NCBI RefSeq assembly: GCF_000473225.1
Contig: NZ_KI421509.1
Coordinates: 4,362-68,361, forward strand
DNA from: Sedimentitalea nanhaiensis DSM 24252
Lineage (GTDB): Bacteria > Pseudomonadota > Alphaproteobacteria > Rhodobacterales > Rhodobacteraceae
Direction: 5' to 3'
DNA: 64,000 bases
The translations under genes and the position numbers were made by a program. Each line of letters starts with the position of its first letter. The first letter of the stretch is position 1. Under the pieces are notes generated by a model. It worked only from the letters and a program-made list of their open reading frames with translations, searched no databases and was not told where the DNA came from. Shown piece after piece: positions 35,916 to 42,328 of the stretch.

Positions 35916-37181
35916 ATGCGCAGAGTAGTCGTAACGGGGCTGGGGCTGATTACCCCTTTGGCCAGTGGTGTCGAGGAAAGCTGGTCGCGATTGCTGGCCG
36001 GGCAATCCGGTGCAGGCCCGATCAAGCAGTTTGATGCGGTCGCCAGCGGCGTGACGACCACCTATGCCTGCGAAGTTCCCCAGGGCGATGGCAGCGACGG
36101 CACCTTTAATGCCGATGACTGGCTGGCCCCCAAGGAACAGCGCAAGATCGACGATTTCATCCTTTACGGTATCGCGGCGGCTGATATGGCCGTGCACGAT
36201 GCCGGGTGGACTCCGGAAGACGAAGAAGACCGACTGCGCACCGGGGTGATGATCGGATCGGGGATCGGCGGGCTGAGTTCGATTGCCGATACGGCGGTGA
36301 TGATCAAGCAGAAGGGCCCGCGCCGGGTGTCGCCGTTCTTTATTCCGGGTGCACTGATCAATCTGATTTCGGGCCAAGTCAGCATCCGGTTTGGGTTCAA
36401 GGGGCCGAACCACGCGGTGGTGACGGCCTGTTCGACCGGCGCGCATGCCATCGGCGACGCCACGCGGCTTATCCAGCACGGCGATGCCGATGTGATGATC
36501 GCGGGTGGTGCCGAGGCGGCGATTTGCGAGATCGGCATCGCCGGTTTCAACGCGTGTAAGGCGCTAAGCACCAAGTTCGCAGACAATCCGCAGGCGGCGA
36601 GCCGCCCGTATGATGCGGATCGTGACGGGTTTGTCATGGGCGAGGGCGCAGGCATTGTGGTGCTGGAGGAATATGAGCATGCCAAGGCTCGCGGAGCCAA
36701 GATCTATGCCGAGGTTCTGGGCTATGGCCTGTCGGGCGATGCCTATCACATCACGGCCCCTTCCGAGACCGGCGACGGGGCTGAACGATCGATGCGGGCG
36801 GCACTGAGGCAGGCGGGGCTGGAGCCAGCCGACATCGATTACATTAATGCGCACGGAACCAGTACGATGGCAGATACCATCGAACTGGCTGCTGTCGAGC
36901 GGATGATGGGCGATGCGGCGTCCAAGGTCACCATGTCGTCAAGCAAGTCGATGACGGGCCATTTATTGGGGGCTGCCGGGGCAATTGAAGCGATTTTCTC
37001 GATCCTTGCGATCCGCGATCAGGTCGCGCCACCGACAATCAATCTGGATAACCCGGCGGTGGATACGGTTGTGGATCTGGCCCCGAATGCCAAGCGAGAG
37101 CGTGAAATCAACGTTGCCTTGTCCAATTCATTCGGGTTTGGCGGCACCAACGCGAGTGTCCTGTTCGGGAAAGCCGACTGA
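35916..37181 (+). CDS. fabF: beta-ketoacyl-ACP synthase II
   Basis: A 421-residue condensing enzyme for chain elongation. MRRVVVTGLGLITPLASGVE opens the protein; the catalytic Cys is in VVTACSTGAHAIGDA, and the two His are in NAHGTSTMADTIE and SSSKSMTGHLLGAAGAIE. The C-terminal block NSFGFGGTNASVLF is standard. The start at 35916 has AAGAGGGC upstream; the frame extends to 35883. A TGCCCC/GGGGCA hairpin (35852-35871) lies in the 142-bp leader. The stop overlaps the mltG start. Confidence 0.96.
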   Translation: MRRVVVTGLGLITPLASGVEESWSRLLAGQSGAGPIKQFDAVASGVTTTYACEVPQGDGSDGTFNADDWLAPKEQRKIDDFILYGIAAADMAVHDAGWTPEDEEDRLRTGVMIGSGIGGLSSIADTAVMIKQKGPRRVSPFFIPGALINLISGQVSIRFGFKGPNHAVVTACSTGAHAIGDATRLIQHGDADVMIAGGAEAAICEIGIAGFNACKALSTKFADNPQAASRPYDADRDGFVMGEGAGIVVLEEYEHAKARGAKIYAEVLGYGLSGDAYHITAPSETGDGAERSMRAALRQAGLEPADIDYINAHGTSTMADTIELAAVERMMGDAASKVTMSSSKSMTGHLLGAAGAIEAIFSILAIRDQVAPPTINLDNPAVDTVVDLAPNAKREREINVALSNSFGFGGTNASVLFGKAD

Positions 37182-38335
37182 TGTGGCGCGGCCTTGCTTC
37201 GAACATGCTGACATTTCTGATTGTGGGTCTTTTCCTGCTGGTCGGGTTCATTCTCTGGGGGCAGTCGCAATACACGGCACAAGGCCCGTTGGAGCAAGCC
37301 ATTTGTCTGCGGGTCGAGCGTGGCTCGAACATGGGTGCGGTTAGCCGCGATCTGGAGCGACAGGGTGCGGTTTCCAACGGCACCATCTTCCGACTGGGCG
37401 CGGATTACGCCGACAAATCCGCTTTGCTGAAGGCTGGCAGTTATCTGGTCCGGCCGGGCGTCTCGATGGAGCAGATTGTCGAGCAGGTCACACGTGGCGG
37501 GGCAAGCACGTGCGGTACGGAGATCGTATATCGGGTTGGGGTCACCCGGACCGAGGCGCAAGTGCGCGAGTTGGATCCAGCCAACAACCAGTTTGTCGAG
37601 GTTGCCGCGTTTGACCCTGCCGGGGAAGACATTCCTGCCATCTATACCGAAAAACGTGCTGAAGCTGACACGCGGTACCGGATCGCTCTGGCGGAAGGTG
37701 TGACCAGTTGGCAGGTGGTCGAGGCTGTCAAGGCGATGGATGTGTTGAGCGGTGATGTGACGGATTTGCCAGCCGAAGGTATGTTGGCGCCGGACAGCTA
37801 TGAGTTGGTTGACGGTGCGGACCGGAGTGCCTTGCTTGCGCGGATGCAGGAAGTTCAAACCCTGCGCATCGCCGCCGCCTGGGAAAGCCGTCAGGATGGT
37901 TTGCCGCTGAACAGCCCCGAGGAAATGCTGATCCTGGCATCGATTATCGAAAAGGAGACCGGGGTTTCCGAGGAGCGCAGGCAAGTGGCCAGTGTGTTCA
38001 TCAACCGGCTGAACCAGGGTATGAAGTTGCAAACCGATCCGACGGTAATTTACGGCATCACCCAGGGGCAAGGTATTTTGGGGCGCGGCTTGCGGCAAAG
38101 CGAACTGCGTCGCCAAACGCCGTGGAACACCTATGTGATTAACGGCTTGCCGCCGACACCAATTGCCAATCCCGGAATGGCCAGCCTGGAGGCAGCGGTT
38201 GCGCCAGCGAATACGGATTACGTGTTTTTTGTTGCGGATGGGACCGGCGGGCATGCTTTCGCCACCACGCTGGAGGAGCACAATCGGAACGTTGCCAAGT
38301 GGCGTGAGATCGAAGCGGATCGGGCCAATAATTGA
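37181..38335 (+). CDS. mltG: endolytic transglycosylase MltG (YceG family)
   Basis: A 384-residue inner-membrane protein with one N-terminal transmembrane helix (about residues 7-27, LTFLIVGLFLLVGFILW) and a periplasmic YceG domain. The catalytic glutamate lies in ASIIEKETGVSEERRQVASV, and NTYVINGLPPTPIANPG is the second family motif. MltG cuts nascent glycan strands and may set their length. The start overlaps the fabF stop (TGATG), so the two are co-translated; the fabF-mltG pairing is common in bacteria. Confidence 0.94.
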   Translation: MWRGLASNMLTFLIVGLFLLVGFILWGQSQYTAQGPLEQAICLRVERGSNMGAVSRDLERQGAVSNGTIFRLGADYADKSALLKAGSYLVRPGVSMEQIVEQVTRGGASTCGTEIVYRVGVTRTEAQVRELDPANNQFVEVAAFDPAGEDIPAIYTEKRAEADTRYRIALAEGVTSWQVVEAVKAMDVLSGDVTDLPAEGMLAPDSYELVDGADRSALLARMQEVQTLRIAAAWESRQDGLPLNSPEEMLILASIIEKETGVSEERRQVASVFINRLNQGMKLQTDPTVIYGITQGQGILGRGLRQSELRRQTPWNTYVINGLPPTPIANPGMASLEAAVAPANTDYVFFVADGTGGHAFATTLEEHNRNVAKWREIEADRANN

Positions 38336-38431
38336 AGCCGTGCCGTTTGTTCGGCGGGGGCCGCTTGGACGGAAGTTAGGAGTTTCTTAACTATACCTTA
38401 CGGTTAGAAGGTTTATCCGCTCCGAATTTGC

Positions 38432-38460
38432 TTGACTTAGCGAACGGTCTCGCGTATAGG
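38432..38460 (+). promoter_or_regulatory. sigma70-like promoter of the GTA cluster
   Basis: TTGACT (38432-38437), a 17-bp spacer and TATAGG (38455-38460) form a near-consensus promoter facing g1. The expected transcription start is near 38467, one base from an ATG and only 20 bases before a terminator hairpin. The order promoter, terminator, structural genes points to conditional readthrough. Confidence 0.7.
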
Positions 38461-38467
38461 TTGTGTC

Positions 38468-38509
38468 ATGCTAGAAGAAGTGGGCGAACGGCCGCGGGAA
38501 TTCCCGTAG
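38468..38509 (+). CDS. possible 13-codon leader peptide
   Basis: ATG at 38468 opens a frame reading MLEEVGERPREFP before TAG. It starts about where transcription should begin, so translation would be leaderless, and its second half overlaps the terminator stem. Ribosomes here could affect hairpin formation. It may also be chance: no codon run typical of amino-acid attenuators is seen. Confidence 0.25.
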   Translation: MLEEVGERPREFP

Positions 38510-38519
38510 GCCGTTTTTT
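38487..38519 (+). terminator. intrinsic terminator in the GTA leader
   Basis: Outer stem AACGGCC (38487-38493) with GGCCGTT (38509-38515) and inner stem CGGG/CCCG around AATT, followed by six T (38514-38519). It lies between the GTA promoter and g1, so full-length GTA transcription needs readthrough or antitermination. Confidence 0.8.
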
Positions 38520-38557
38520 CGTTTCTCTCGTGCGGAGAAGTTCAACGCATGAGGTAG

Positions 38558-38896
38558 ATGAGCAAAATGACTTTGATTACCCCGGAGGAGCGCATTCTGC
38601 GAACGGCTGAATTGTTTCAGTCGGTCGAAAAGACGCTCATAAGATTGCGTCAGCAGGCAGAAGATCTGCGTAAGCAACTGGCAGCCGGGGAGGAAACAGA
38701 TCTTGTTGATGGTAGTAAGCAAGTTGCGGCGGTCGAAAGGCTGATCGGGGCTTGCCAGAAGGTGGAGATGAGCCTTGTCGAGCAGCAAAGGAAACAAGAG
38801 GGAATTGTTAGAGGCGGATACGCCCTTGATATGGACGCCGCTCGGATTGAGATCGGGTGCCGATTGGCTCGCCTCAAAAGATGTTGCGATACGTGA
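38558..38896 (+). CDS. GTA g1, small terminase subunit
   Basis: A 112-residue helical protein. The middle (LFQSVEKTLIRLRQQAEDLR) is coiled-coil, and the C-terminal part has RIEIGCRLARL. In R. capsulatus the product of g1 is the small terminase subunit, lacking specific DNA recognition so that any host DNA is packaged. Identity rests mainly on position directly before the large terminase and on general size. AGG precedes ATG 38558, and 38567 is an alternative start. It overlaps g2 by 122 bp in another frame. Confidence 0.75.
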   Translation: MSKMTLITPEERILRTAELFQSVEKTLIRLRQQAEDLRKQLAAGEETDLVDGSKQVAAVERLIGACQKVEMSLVEQQRKQEGIVRGGYALDMDAARIEIGCRLARLKRCCDT

Positions 38897-40190
38897 TCAG
38901 TTTTTGGATTCACTTGGGGAGGGAGGGCTTTGCGCCCTCCCTTTTCTTTTCGAGTTTTGGGCACTGGAGCATCAACTGCCGCCCGAGGGAAATTGGCGGT
39001 CGTGGGTGATCATGGGGGGACGAGGCGCGGGCAAAACCCGGGCTGGGGCAGAATGGGTGCGCAGCCAAGTTGAAGGTGCGCGGCCGCTGGATCCGGGAAA
39101 GAAAAAGCGCGTGGCATTGGTGGCGGAAACGTTCGATCAGGTTCGCGATGTAATGATCAAGGGCGAAAGCGGAATTCTGGCCTGCTCGCCACCAGACCGG
39201 GTGCCAACTTGGAAAGCGACCGAACGCAAACTGGTCTGGGACAATGGTGCCGAGGCGCAGGCGTTTTCGGCCAATGATCCAGAAGGGTTGCGGGGACCGC
39301 AGTTCGATGCGGCCTGGGTTGATGAACTGGCCAAGTGGAAAAGAGCTCAGGACACTTGGGACATGTTGCAATTCGCGTTGCGGCTCGGAGAGCAGCCGCA
39401 GGTTTGTGTGACGACGACGCCGCGCAATGTCGGGGTGTTGAAGGATCTGTTGGGATCGCCGTCGACCGTGGTGACCCACGCCCCTACAGAAGCGAACCGG
39501 GCCAATCTGGCAGAGAGCTTCCTGGAGGAAGTGCGCAGTCGCTATGCCGGAACGCGATTGGGGCGTCAGGAACTGGATGGGGTGCTGTTGGCCGACGCCG
39601 AGGGGGCGTTGTGGACGACGGATATGGTGCAGGCTGCGCGCGTGAGCAGCATTCCAAAACTGGACCGGGTGGTCGTTGCATTGGACCCCGCCGTCAGTGC
39701 CGGGGCAGGTGCAGATGATTGCGGTATCGTCGTGGTCGGCGCGCAAACCCAGGGGCCGCCACAGGATTGGCGAGCTTATGTGCTGGCCGATTGTACGGTT
39801 CAGGGTGTTGGACCCACGGGATGGGCCCGCGCCGCAATTGCGGCAATGGATCAATATGGGGCAGAACGGCTGGTGGCCGAGGTCAATCAGGGTGGGCAGT
39901 TGGTCGAGGAAGTGGTTCGTCAGATAGATGCCCTGGTGCCGTACAAGGCGGTACATGCTTCGCGAGGCAAGGTTGCAAGGGCGGAGCCGGTTGCGGCGCT
40001 GTATGAACAGGGGCGGGTGCGCCACGCCAAGGGCCTGGCCGAGTTGGAAGAACAGATGTGCCTTATAACCCCACGTGGCTATGAGGGTCGGGGTAGTCCT
40101 GACCGAGTTGACGCGTTGGTCTGGGCCTTGCACGAGCTGATGATCGCCCCAGCTGCCCAATTTCGGCGTCCTCGAATCCGTACTCTGTAG
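38775..40190 (+). CDS. GTA g2, terminase large subunit
   Basis: A 471-residue packaging motor ATPase and nuclease. Walker A is VIMGGRGAGKTRAGAEWV, Walker B is FDAAWVDELAKW with catalytic Glu, and the nuclease half carries VVALDPAVSAGAGADD and LVAEVNQGGQLVEEV, with an acidic residue in PDRVDALVWAL. Headful packaging by this enzyme fills the small GTA capsid with host DNA. The listed ATG lies inside g1; TTG codons at 38808 and 38823 are possible true starts, as homology is clear only from SGADWLAS. Confidence 0.93.
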   Translation: MSSSKGNKRELLEADTPLIWTPLGLRSGADWLASKDVAIRDQFLDSLGEGGLCALPFLFEFWALEHQLPPEGNWRSWVIMGGRGAGKTRAGAEWVRSQVEGARPLDPGKKKRVALVAETFDQVRDVMIKGESGILACSPPDRVPTWKATERKLVWDNGAEAQAFSANDPEGLRGPQFDAAWVDELAKWKRAQDTWDMLQFALRLGEQPQVCVTTTPRNVGVLKDLLGSPSTVVTHAPTEANRANLAESFLEEVRSRYAGTRLGRQELDGVLLADAEGALWTTDMVQAARVSSIPKLDRVVVALDPAVSAGAGADDCGIVVVGAQTQGPPQDWRAYVLADCTVQGVGPTGWARAAIAAMDQYGAERLVAEVNQGGQLVEEVVRQIDALVPYKAVHASRGKVARAEPVAALYEQGRVRHAKGLAELEEQMCLITPRGYEGRGSPDRVDALVWALHELMIAPAAQFRRPRIRTL

Positions 40191-40217
40191 CGCCGCGCGT
40201 AAGGGGGTGTTGCCGGA

Positions 40218-40237
40218 CCACCGTACGGTGGGTTTTT
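40218..40237 (+). terminator. terminator-like hairpin between g2 and g3
   Basis: The 14-bp palindrome CCACCGTACGGTGG (40218-40231) is followed by G and five T (40233-40237). It lies in the 137-bp gap between g2 and g3, inside what should be a single operon. Confidence 0.65.
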
Positions 40238-40327
40238 CGAATTTTGCCAATCATCAGGCAAAAGGTTCGCAACGGACCGGTCGGCGCGGATCAGGCGTGC
40301 GGCGATGATCAGATAGGAGCATCGATT

Positions 40328-41515
40328 ATGGTATTTGATTTCTTGCGGCGCGGCACAGCTTCCCAAGTGCCGGAGACCAAGGCAAGCGCGACAGGGCCGG
40401 TTGTGGCCTATCACAGCGCGGGTCGGGTAGCCTGGAGCCCGCGGGATACGGTGTCGCTAACGCGGACAGGGTTTTCGGGGAACCCGGTCGGGTTTCGTTC
40501 GGTCAAGTTGATTGCGGAAGCGGCAGCGGCATTGCCTCTGGTATTGCAGGATCGCTGCCAACGCTTTGAAACTCATCCGGTGCTGGCGTTGATCATGCAG
40601 CCCAACGCCGCCCAGGGGCGCGCCGAACTGATGGAGGCGCTGTTTGGTCAATTGCTGTTGTCCGGCAATGCCTATGTCGAGGCGGTCGCTGGGGAAGATG
40701 GGGTGCCGCTGGAACTGCACGTTCTGCGGTCGGATCGTATGAAGGTGGTTCCGGGTGCCGATGGTTGGCCCATTGCCTATGACTATAGTGTTGGTGCGAA
40801 GAAGCATCGGTTCAATGCGACGACGGCGGTTTCGCCGATCTGTCACATCAAGTCGTTCCATCCGCAGGATGACCACTATGGGTTCTCGCCGATGCAGGCG
40901 GCAGCAATGGCAGTGGACGTGCATAACAGTGCTTCGCGTTGGTCGAAGGCGTTGTTGGACAATGCCGCGCGGCCCAGTGGAGCGTTGATTTTCAACAGTT
41001 CCGATGGTCATGGGGCCATGGCCGACGACCAGTACCGCCGCTTGTCCGAGGAAATCGAGGCAAACTATCAGGGGGCTCGCAATGCTGGCCGCCCGATGGT
41101 TCTGGAAGGGGGGCTGGACTGGAAGCCGATGGGGTTCTCGCCCAGCGATATGGAATTCCAGAAAACCAAGGAATCCGCAGCGCGCGAAATTGCTCTGGCC
41201 TTTGGGGTGCCGCCGATGCTGATCGGCATCCAGGGTGACGCGACCTATGCCAACTACCAGGAAGCGAACCGCGCCTTTTATCGGTTGACGGTACTGCCGT
41301 TGGCGACGCGGGTGGCGTCGGCTCTGGGCGACTGGCTGTCACAGTTCAGTGGCGATGAACTGGAGTTGAAGCCCGATCTGGATCAGGTTCCCGCGCTGTC
41401 GGCCGAACGCGATGCACAGTGGTCGCGCGTTTCGGGAGCTGATTTTTTGACGACAGCTGAAAAGCGGGCGTTGCTTGGATTGCCAGCGGTTCCCGAAGGC
41501 GGTGCGGATGAATGA
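40328..41515 (+). CDS. GTA g3, portal protein
   Basis: A 395-residue HK97-type portal. SVKLIAEAAAALPLVLQD is the typical opening, LLSGNAYVEAV and LHVLRSDRMKVVPGADGW are mid-domain blocks, SPMQAAAMAVDVHN and VPPMLIGIQGDATYANYQEA (the family signature) follow. Twelve copies form the ring through which terminase pumps DNA and to which the tail connects. The start has AGGAG upstream; an open frame to 40244 is not needed. Confidence 0.94.
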   Translation: MVFDFLRRGTASQVPETKASATGPVVAYHSAGRVAWSPRDTVSLTRTGFSGNPVGFRSVKLIAEAAAALPLVLQDRCQRFETHPVLALIMQPNAAQGRAELMEALFGQLLLSGNAYVEAVAGEDGVPLELHVLRSDRMKVVPGADGWPIAYDYSVGAKKHRFNATTAVSPICHIKSFHPQDDHYGFSPMQAAAMAVDVHNSASRWSKALLDNAARPSGALIFNSSDGHGAMADDQYRRLSEEIEANYQGARNAGRPMVLEGGLDWKPMGFSPSDMEFQKTKESAAREIALAFGVPPMLIGIQGDATYANYQEANRAFYRLTVLPLATRVASALGDWLSQFSGDELELKPDLDQVPALSAERDAQWSRVSGADFLTTAEKRALLGLPAVPEGGADE

Positions 41516-41735
41516 CGGCGGTCGCAGGTTTGAGGCTTTTGAATGTGCGCCGGGATTGCGGTTGGCCGCTCATGAACGCGTGAGCCAGATCCATCACGAT
41601 AACCTGGTGCGCCGCCTGGATCGGTTGGACCAGATGATGGAGCGGCTGGAAAAGCGGCTGTGGCTTACGGTTTATGGCGTGGTCGCCGTAATTCTGAGCC
41701 AGGCGGTGCAATCCTTTCTCGCAGCAGCGCCGTAA
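41508..41735 (+). CDS. GTA g3.5, small membrane-like protein
   Basis: A 75-residue protein that overlaps the end of g3 by 8 bp. A coiled-coil region (LVRRLDRLDQMMERLEKRLW) is followed by one hydrophobic helix (LTVYGVVAVILSQAVQSFLA) at the C terminus. Position and architecture match the GTA g3.5 reading frame, whose role is not established; a scaffold or membrane-associated assembly function is possible. Confidence 0.8.
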   Translation: MNDGGRRFEAFECAPGLRLAAHERVSQIHHDNLVRRLDRLDQMMERLEKRLWLTVYGVVAVILSQAVQSFLAAAP

Positions 41736-41770
41736 GTGAGGGAATCACAATGGATTACAAGGAGTGTGTT

Positions 41771-42328
41771 ATGACTACTGACACCGGGCTGGAGCATAAG
41801 TTTGCCAAGTTTGGCGATGGGCTGAGCGTTTCCGAAGATGCGGTGATCGAAGGATATGCGAGCCTGTTCGGGCAAGCCGATCAAGGTGGCGATATTGTGC
41901 AAAAGGGTGCCTATGCCAGGTCGATAACCGCGTTGGAAAAAGCCGGTCGGCGGGTCAAGATGCTGTGGCAACATGACCCTGCGCAGCCAATCGGTGTCTG
42001 GGACGTGGTGCGCGAAGATGGCGAGGGGCTTTGGGTCAAGGGCCGCCTGCTGGACTGCACGCTGAAAGGGCGTGAAGCGGCAGCGTTGATTGCAGCCGGA
42101 GCCATTGACGGACTGTCGATCGGATATCGCACAACAAAAGCGAGTAAGAATGACAAGGGCCAGCGGCTCTTGACGGAACTGGAGCTTTGGGAGGTGTCAT
42201 TGGTGACCTTTCCGATGCTGCCCAGTGCGCGGGTGGCGGCCAAAAGCGAAAGCTTGGAGGCGGAAGCCACGCTGCGTGAATTGGCGGCGACACTGGAACG
42301 TGCGCGGCTGGAGCTGGCGCGCCGCTGA
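41771..42328 (+). CDS. GTA g4, prohead protease
   Basis: A 185-residue HK97-family serine protease that matures the capsid. IEGYASLFGQADQGGDIV opens the domain; the catalytic His is in KMLWQHDPAQPIG and the Ser in AIDGLSIGYRT. LWEVSLVTFPM is the usual end of the core, and a helical tail follows. AAGGAG seven bases before ATG 41771 decides this start, although ATG 41750 with GAGGG is also possible. Confidence 0.92.
   Translation: MTTDTGLEHKFAKFGDGLSVSEDAVIEGYASLFGQADQGGDIVQKGAYARSITALEKAGRRVKMLWQHDPAQPIGVWDVVREDGEGLWVKGRLLDCTLKGREAAALIAAGAIDGLSIGYRTTKASKNDKGQRLLTELELWEVSLVTFPMLPSARVAAKSESLEAEATLRELAATLERARLELARR

Follow-up and report, generated by a model that had tools for sequence, protein, structure and literature searches.

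The leaders at which the lambdoid Q proteins (phage 21 Q; PMC6606751) and Pseudomonas AlpA (PMC9371919) act have late or lytic genes behind them and, as described in the consulted sections of both reports, need a factor site between the -35 and -10 elements, a -10-like element in the first transcribed bases at which sigma causes a pause, and a terminator downstream; in the AlpA leader the -10-like element is CACGAT, at -1 to +5 (PMC9371919). A protein that its authors find to resemble neither Q nor AlpA, GafZ of Caulobacter crescentus, is presented in excerpts of its report as an antiterminator bound between -35 and -10 at the gtaT promoter of a gene transfer agent (GTA) operon, where GafY and IHF also act and where the terminator behind the first gene gtaT (terGTA) is one that GafZ overcomes; the same authors already suggest that GafA of Rhodobacter capsulatus may antiterminate (PMC11150451). 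GafA is a dimer that binds the GTA promoter region in vitro and needs omega, and its C-terminal domain binds the R. capsulatus promoter at -35/-10/start, about 75-125 nucleotides (nt) before g1, according to excerpts of two further reports (PMC6363796, PMC9638019). Here we analyzed positions 38432-38519 of a 64,000-nt stretch of Sedimentitalea nanhaiensis DSM 24252 DNA (contig NZ_KI421509.1 of GCF_000473225.1; the whole stretch is called the window), which lie upstream of g1 in a cluster of the R. capsulatus GTA (RcGTA) type. We put at about 0.7 the probability that these positions are the control leader of the GTA operon, working in the manner of the promoter-terminator pair pR'-tR' of phage late genes.

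A conserved promoter and terminator upstream of g1

The original prediction had read this segment as a candidate antitermination switch consisting of a TTGACT-17-TATAGG promoter, a start near 38467, a 13-codon frame and a hairpin with six T ending at 38519, ahead of g1 at 38558. These coordinates were confirmed letter by letter, and all of the leader elements lie where they had been placed, between the mltG stop and the g1 start (Table 1). Calling the promoter near-consensus was generous, since TATAGG is without T at -7 and a consensus scan of 36000-42000 listed neither this promoter nor its hairpin; the scan performed at shuffle level (2 promoters against 1.8 in shuffles, 5 terminators against 5.5). 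Two candidate Q-type elements, the spacer motif and the -10-like element, had not been named.

To compare relatives, g1 was searched in 41 genomes, the window's own included, and a profile was built from the 14 that matched; genomes matched by this profile were nearly all of different genera. We examined 113 of the 263 matching Rhodobacteraceae genomes (110 taken from that list, best scores first, plus 3 from the initial g1 search, passing over G057, G119 and G248 on the way) and three more genomes from the initial search (G001, G003 and G004). In all, 118 loci were scored; L019 and L050 repeat genomes already represented by L005 and L013, so that 116 genomes remain. The results showed that the same leader is present upstream of g1 in 95 of the 116, with hairpin and promoter spacing conserved together and with compensatory changes in the stem; the outcome by which the original prediction would have been refuted, no such conservation in close relatives, was thus not seen. 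The 95 leaders were picked by a model containing TTGAC and TATAGG...GAAG, and thus the conservation of those letters is partly by construction.

The conserved leader block comprises the -35 element, a CGnnCG spacer motif, CA[T/A]GCT at about -1/+5, GAAGAAGTGGG and a hairpin-T terminator. CGnnCG was intact in 78 of the 95 leaders (single columns: C in 84, G in 91, C in 93 and G in 85); its columns lay outside the alignment model, yet they were conserved, and so was TGGG before the hairpin, likewise outside the model. The spacer measured 17 nt in 76 leaders, 16 in 18 and 18 in one, while the -10 columns read T in 76, A in 78, T in 62 and A in 59, with T at the last place in 12 of 95. The A (place 2) and T (place 6) of the -10-like element occurred together in 94 of 95 leaders, both letters being in the search model; when 78 loci were anchored on the -35 element and spacer alone, A was found in 66 and T in 64, and CAWGCT and GAAGA were still conserved. 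Transcription probably starts near 38467/8, 90-91 nt before g1, a position falling in the published R. capsulatus GafA-bound interval, and CATGCT would span -1 to +5 if A38468 is +1. The composite motif TTGACN4CGN2CGN8TAN10CANGCT had a single exact match in the 4.95-Mb genome, namely this locus, and with up to three mismatches 51 matches against 42 for the reversed pattern. We judged the promoter and hairpin to be real because they are conserved, despite their chance-level consensus matches.

Table 1. Features of the GTA leader and neighboring genes, in window coordinates
Feature	Position	Strand	Remarks
mltG	stop 38335	same as GTA	directly upstream of the leader
-35 element TTGACT	38432-38437	+	TTGA in 95/95 and C in 94/95 aligned leaders, partly by construction (TTGAC in search model)
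Promoter spacer	38438-38454	+	17 nt
Spacer motif GCGAACGGTC	38440-38449	+	candidate site bound by the DUF6456/GafZ-like domain at the C-terminal end of GafA
-10 element TATAGG	38455-38460	+	weak, without T at -7
CATGCT, initially transcribed region	38467-38472	+	candidate -10-like (sigma-dependent pause) element; pause function putative
13-codon frame	38468-38509	+	ATG 38468 to TAG 38509; judged not a gene
AGAAGAAGTGGGC, between -10-like element and hairpin	38473-38485	+	conserved; columns 0.4-2.0 bits (95 leaders)
Leader intrinsic terminator (predicted)	38486-38519	+	hairpin 38486-38516, T-run 38514-38519; -21.3 kcal/mol
g1, GTA small terminase homologue	38558-38896	+	ATG 38558; homologue profile matches 263/296 family genomes; no match in Pfam at E 0.001
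g2, large terminase open frame	38775-40190	+	Terminase_6N/6C; open-frame coordinates, start not fixed
Second terminator, g1/g2 junction	38916-38950	+	just behind g1 stop, inside 5' part of g2 open frame
GTA cluster	to 52587		g1, g2 large terminase, portal, protease, capsid, connector, head/tail completion, tail tube, DUF2460, hub, NlpC/P60, GTA_TIM

As in the Q and AlpA leaders, a predicted intrinsic terminator lies downstream of the promoter and before the genes that it would control. The 94 nt from 38467 folded to -41.7 kcal/mol (z -5.1; 0 of 200 shuffles as good) and the 54-nt leader alone to -23.4 kcal/mol (z -3.1; 1 of 200 shuffles); the opposite strand also folds (-18.3 kcal/mol, z -2.6), but has no T-run behind its stem. 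A hairpin with a T-rich tail of -15 kcal/mol or better was found in 90 of 95 leaders and in 3 of 95 shuffles, and at -10 kcal/mol or better in 92 leaders and 16 shuffles, the hairpin of these 92 ending +43 to +57 from the inferred start. Covariation was assessed in the 70 best-scoring of the 95 leaders, where the six outer stem pairs were 87.7% paired and standard and where 54 double-change cells were counted against 13.4 in shuffles and 7-24 when the alignment was slid; these counts, like the other shuffle counts, ignore the relatedness of the genomes. The start codon of the 13-codon frame reads ATG in 59 leaders, AAG in 26, AGG in 4, ACG in 4 and otherwise in 2, and where ATG is present the frame runs for 4-80 codons. 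A leader peptide was therefore rejected, the ATG being altered in 36 of 95 leaders while the A and T of CAWGCT are kept in 94.

A second conserved block follows the hairpin at 38521-38560 (TTTCTCTCGTGCGGA...GCATGAG(R)GG). Its ends can pair (CUCGUGC/GCAUGAG) and overlap the probable ribosome site of g1; by strict pattern its first half was found in 54, its second half in 66, and both in order in 49 of 92 leaders. It could serve in translation control or as a factor site. In G009 (L017), a real genome without a scoring leader, the promoter and hairpin seem to have decayed, whereas g1 and the downstream block (CTCGTGCGG...GCATGAGG) persist, possibly a natural loss of control. The window cluster lies downstream of fabF and mltG, and its order TerS-TerL-portal-protease-capsid-tail with a GTA_TIM protein is that of the RcGTA type.

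A GafA-type regulator and a second terminator

A GTA controlled by GafA or GafZ is expected to be accompanied by a DUF6456 regulator. In the window's genome DUF6456 is matched once (E 1.4e-62), by the C-terminal part of a 403-amino-acid open frame whose start is not fixed, and the GafA homologue on which the original prediction relied is encoded in the same genome. DUF6456 proteins (GafA/GafZ) were present in 275 of 296 family genomes, and 17 of the 20 named family genomes without one also lacked a g1 match.

The junction of g1 and g2 carries a second predicted terminator (-22.7 kcal/mol, followed by TTTTC), which was found in 30 of 37 genomes, the window's included, against 82 of 370 shuffles. 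A paired change in its hairpin, GGGAGGGC/GCCCTCCC to GGGAGAGC/GCTCTCCC, occurs for example in L036; provided that g2 is read there in the window's frame, it changes a single amino acid and a single silent base.

Comparison with the closest described GTA promoters was made on excerpts of the reports. The C. crescentus gtaT promoter (PMC11150451) shares with this locus a GTA operon, a DUF6456 homologue (the family search matches in Caulobacter), a spacer element, here a candidate one, with similar letters and a terminator behind the first gene. The GafZ element is printed there as GCGCCCG-CTGGCGC; its left part matches GCGNNCG[G/C]T, provided that the hyphen stands for no missing letters. Set against that published description, the present locus has in addition a predicted leader terminator about 50 nt after the start. 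Its -35 element is near consensus and its -10 element weak, whereas the Caulobacter -35 element is described as degenerate. Behind g1 the terminator consists of a short hairpin lying within the g2 frame and not of 150-bp repeats, and GafY and GafZ form one protein (PMC11150451). R. capsulatus RcGTA resembles this locus in having a GafA homologue and a start, predicted in the present case, inside the GafA-bound region about 76-125 nt before g1, as far as the consulted sections go, and 'terminat' has no occurrence in either main text (PMC6363796, PMC9638019). Patterns derived from R. capsulatus primers did not locate the leader of that species in viral contigs, nor in 394 family genomes with up to three mismatches.

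Related leaders beyond the family and in viral collections

A search of 84,980 species with the 21-letter downstream motif CAWGCTRGAAGARGTGGGYRA returned at least 119 stretches. Among the 80 matches listed, 73 are Rhodobacterales by record titles; every one of these 73 has TTGA[CT] within 41 nt upstream, and 59 have the full spacer motif. The seven other listed matches come from scattered bacteria, six without TTGA[CT] upstream and one (L187) with it out of place and without the spacer motif, in keeping with chance, for which an arithmetic estimate expects about 4 matches.

In family f13 of the same class, a large terminase was found at E <= 1e-60 in 42 of 59 genomes, and 24 of the 31 loci examined carried the family's own conserved version of the promoter, which reads TTGACATCGTCACGCT...AACATCGCGAT, ...AACGCTGAAGAA or a variant of these. 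A DUF6456 protein was found in 30 of the 31 f13 genomes searched, with open frames of 155-270 amino acids in 23 of the 30, lengths that fit a stand-alone GafZ. In G507, G517, G519, G532, G538 and G542 the DUF6456 gene lies about 0.7-8 kb from the large terminase on the same contig, and this closeness links the regulator and the GTA cluster there. In L323-L350, 28 TerL loci taken from other families of this class, strict motifs gave no convincing copy; leader-like stretches came up in a terminator-based search, in L326, L343 and L345 as well as in L322, which belongs to the own family.

A phage origin of the leader was considered and rejected, there being no DNA match in 50,697 phage records. 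The sole DUF6456 match in the phage collection, MW462191, is on a contig whose annotated neighbors resemble bacterial housekeeping genes and therefore says nothing about phages; its positions 76043-77301 (L383) show a two-gene arrangement like gafY-gafZ, with a DNA-binding protein and a DUF6456 protein. In IMG/VR the downstream motif occurs in 58 contigs (L255-L312), 43 with the -35 element and full spacer motif, 11 with the -35 element in place, 2 cut at the contig end and 2 that look like chance. By motif, 54 of the 58 are probably bacterial GTA clusters filed as viruses.

Mechanism, alternative explanations and significance

Comparison of leader sequences has shown a conserved sigma-70-type promoter with a conserved motif in its spacer, a conserved block of CAWGCT and GAAGAAGTGGG where transcription would begin, a predicted terminator some 50 nt downstream of the inferred start, and another closely following g1. 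An antitermination leader is the simplest account of this arrangement. Unaided polymerase would stop at about +50, or after g1 if it has passed the leader terminator. Sigma would hold the polymerase at the -10-like element, where GafA, with its DUF6456 (GafZ-like) domain bound to the spacer motif, would meet it paused; GafA would then stay on the polymerase and carry it past both terminators into the packaging and structural genes. A lethal operon would thereby be off twice over, as initiation would fail without the activator and read-through without the antiterminator. For the pause and factor loading we infer from likeness to Q and AlpA, and the steps from GafA loading onwards are similarly conjectural. 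By this analogy the GTA leader would work like the Q and AlpA leaders without being a member by descent, the C-terminal domain of GafA being DUF6456. The antitermination switch of the original prediction is thus supported in its conserved promoter, spacing and leader terminator, with candidate Q-type elements well placed, while its 13-codon frame did not hold up as a functional element.

Several observations weigh against antitermination. Twenty-one of the 116 genomes have no scoring leader, and no terminator was found in 3 of the 95 leaders (L047, L111 and L112). G125 (locus L078, in a 320-contig assembly) has an intact leader and no DUF6456 match, G161 and G279 have g1 and no DUF6456 match, 15-16 genomes have DUF6456 without a g1 match, and L326 (f118) has a similar leader in a genome, G416, without a DUF6456 match. 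In f13 a canonical terminator follows only 11 of the 24 promoters (10 of 240 shuffles), and the commoner variant there, AACATCGCGAT, fits xAxxxT only if the register is shifted. Among the 70 best leaders, stem pairs with change on both sides numbered 6 against 4.2 in shuffles, a value reached by 26 of 500 shuffles. Within CAWGCT the G and C are conserved to the same degree as the A and T, pointing to a possible contact other than sigma's, and the second terminator overlaps coding sequence, so its conservation may be partly protein-driven. In the consulted sections, R. capsulatus GafA is published as an activator through omega, with antitermination only suggested (PMC6363796, PMC9638019, PMC11150451).

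Could the hairpin simply insulate the GTA operon, stopping read-through from fabF-mltG, with GafA acting solely as an activator and the polymerase that starts at the GTA promoter passing by ordinary leakage? In the window mltG lies directly upstream on the same strand; it is recognizable in 68 of 115 loci (L017 left out), and of the 95 stretches of 75 nt that precede the promoter just 5 contain a strong terminator. A terminator for mltG would nevertheless be expected before the GTA start rather than 50 nt after it. Where no mltG could be detected within 500 nt ahead of g1, which was the case for 35 leaders, 33 keep the terminator. Among these, the gene identified upstream is oriented away from the GTA in L045 (aminotransferase), L040 (FAA hydrolase) and L043 (decarboxylase domain, E 9e-6), in each case with an end within about 150 nt of the -35 element; it also diverges in L021 (helicase) and L013 (transposase), at 395-536 nt, where other genes may lie between. 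The distance of the terminator from the inferred start stays at +43 to +57. Termination of mltG as the sole role was rejected, the hairpin being kept without mltG and beside diverging genes, and we consider insulation unlikely.

Slightly less probable again is that the CAWGCT-GAAGAAGTGGG block and the spacer motif form only an activator operator, read by GafA as double-stranded DNA, while the terminator sets a low basal level that strong initiation overcomes. The block is indeed conserved beyond what a -10-like element alone requires. A strong terminator, however, is not made permissive by more initiation, and the second terminator at g1/g2 would remain. Published excerpts bear on both sides: the omega-dependent binding of the GafA dimer to the promoter region in vitro suits an operator (PMC6363796, PMC9638019), whereas GafZ, the homologue of the GafA C-domain, antiterminates from the equivalent place (PMC11150451). 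It seems very improbable that the chief function of the leader is to encode a stable RNA of about 50 nt: the leader folds strongly, ends in a terminator and has a conserved block at its 5' end, but the hairpin letters vary while pairing is kept, the conserved letters run into the promoter spacer, which is not transcribed, and Rfam has no family here (two matches far below the cut-offs). A search by titles and abstract starts found no published report of such an RNA, and its production from the leader is possible but unsupported.

The same kind of literature search, which did not cover a Bartonella GTA antitermination paper cited in PMC13236601, turned up no GTA promoter reported to have a leader terminator. 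That GafA activates through omega is published, and antitermination by it has been suggested in print, with no test of it in the sections consulted; the conserved leader, with its terminator, spacer motif and -10-like element, allows this idea to be tested directly in R. capsulatus and related bacteria, and offers a DNA signature by which intact GTA control could be recognized in draft genomes. If GafA does antiterminate, its family, which is not related to Q or AlpA, would join those that solve the same loading problem. More tentatively, and at slightly less than even odds, the GTAs of Alphaproteobacteria may keep the complete late-promoter module of their phage ancestor, at which a DUF6456 factor unrelated to Q would load on sigma-paused polymerase and have to pass two terminators, in the leader and behind TerS. 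On that reading a single chain, GafA, would both activate and antiterminate, jobs that are split in Caulobacter between GafY and GafZ, and such a double lock could help explain why few cells are producers.
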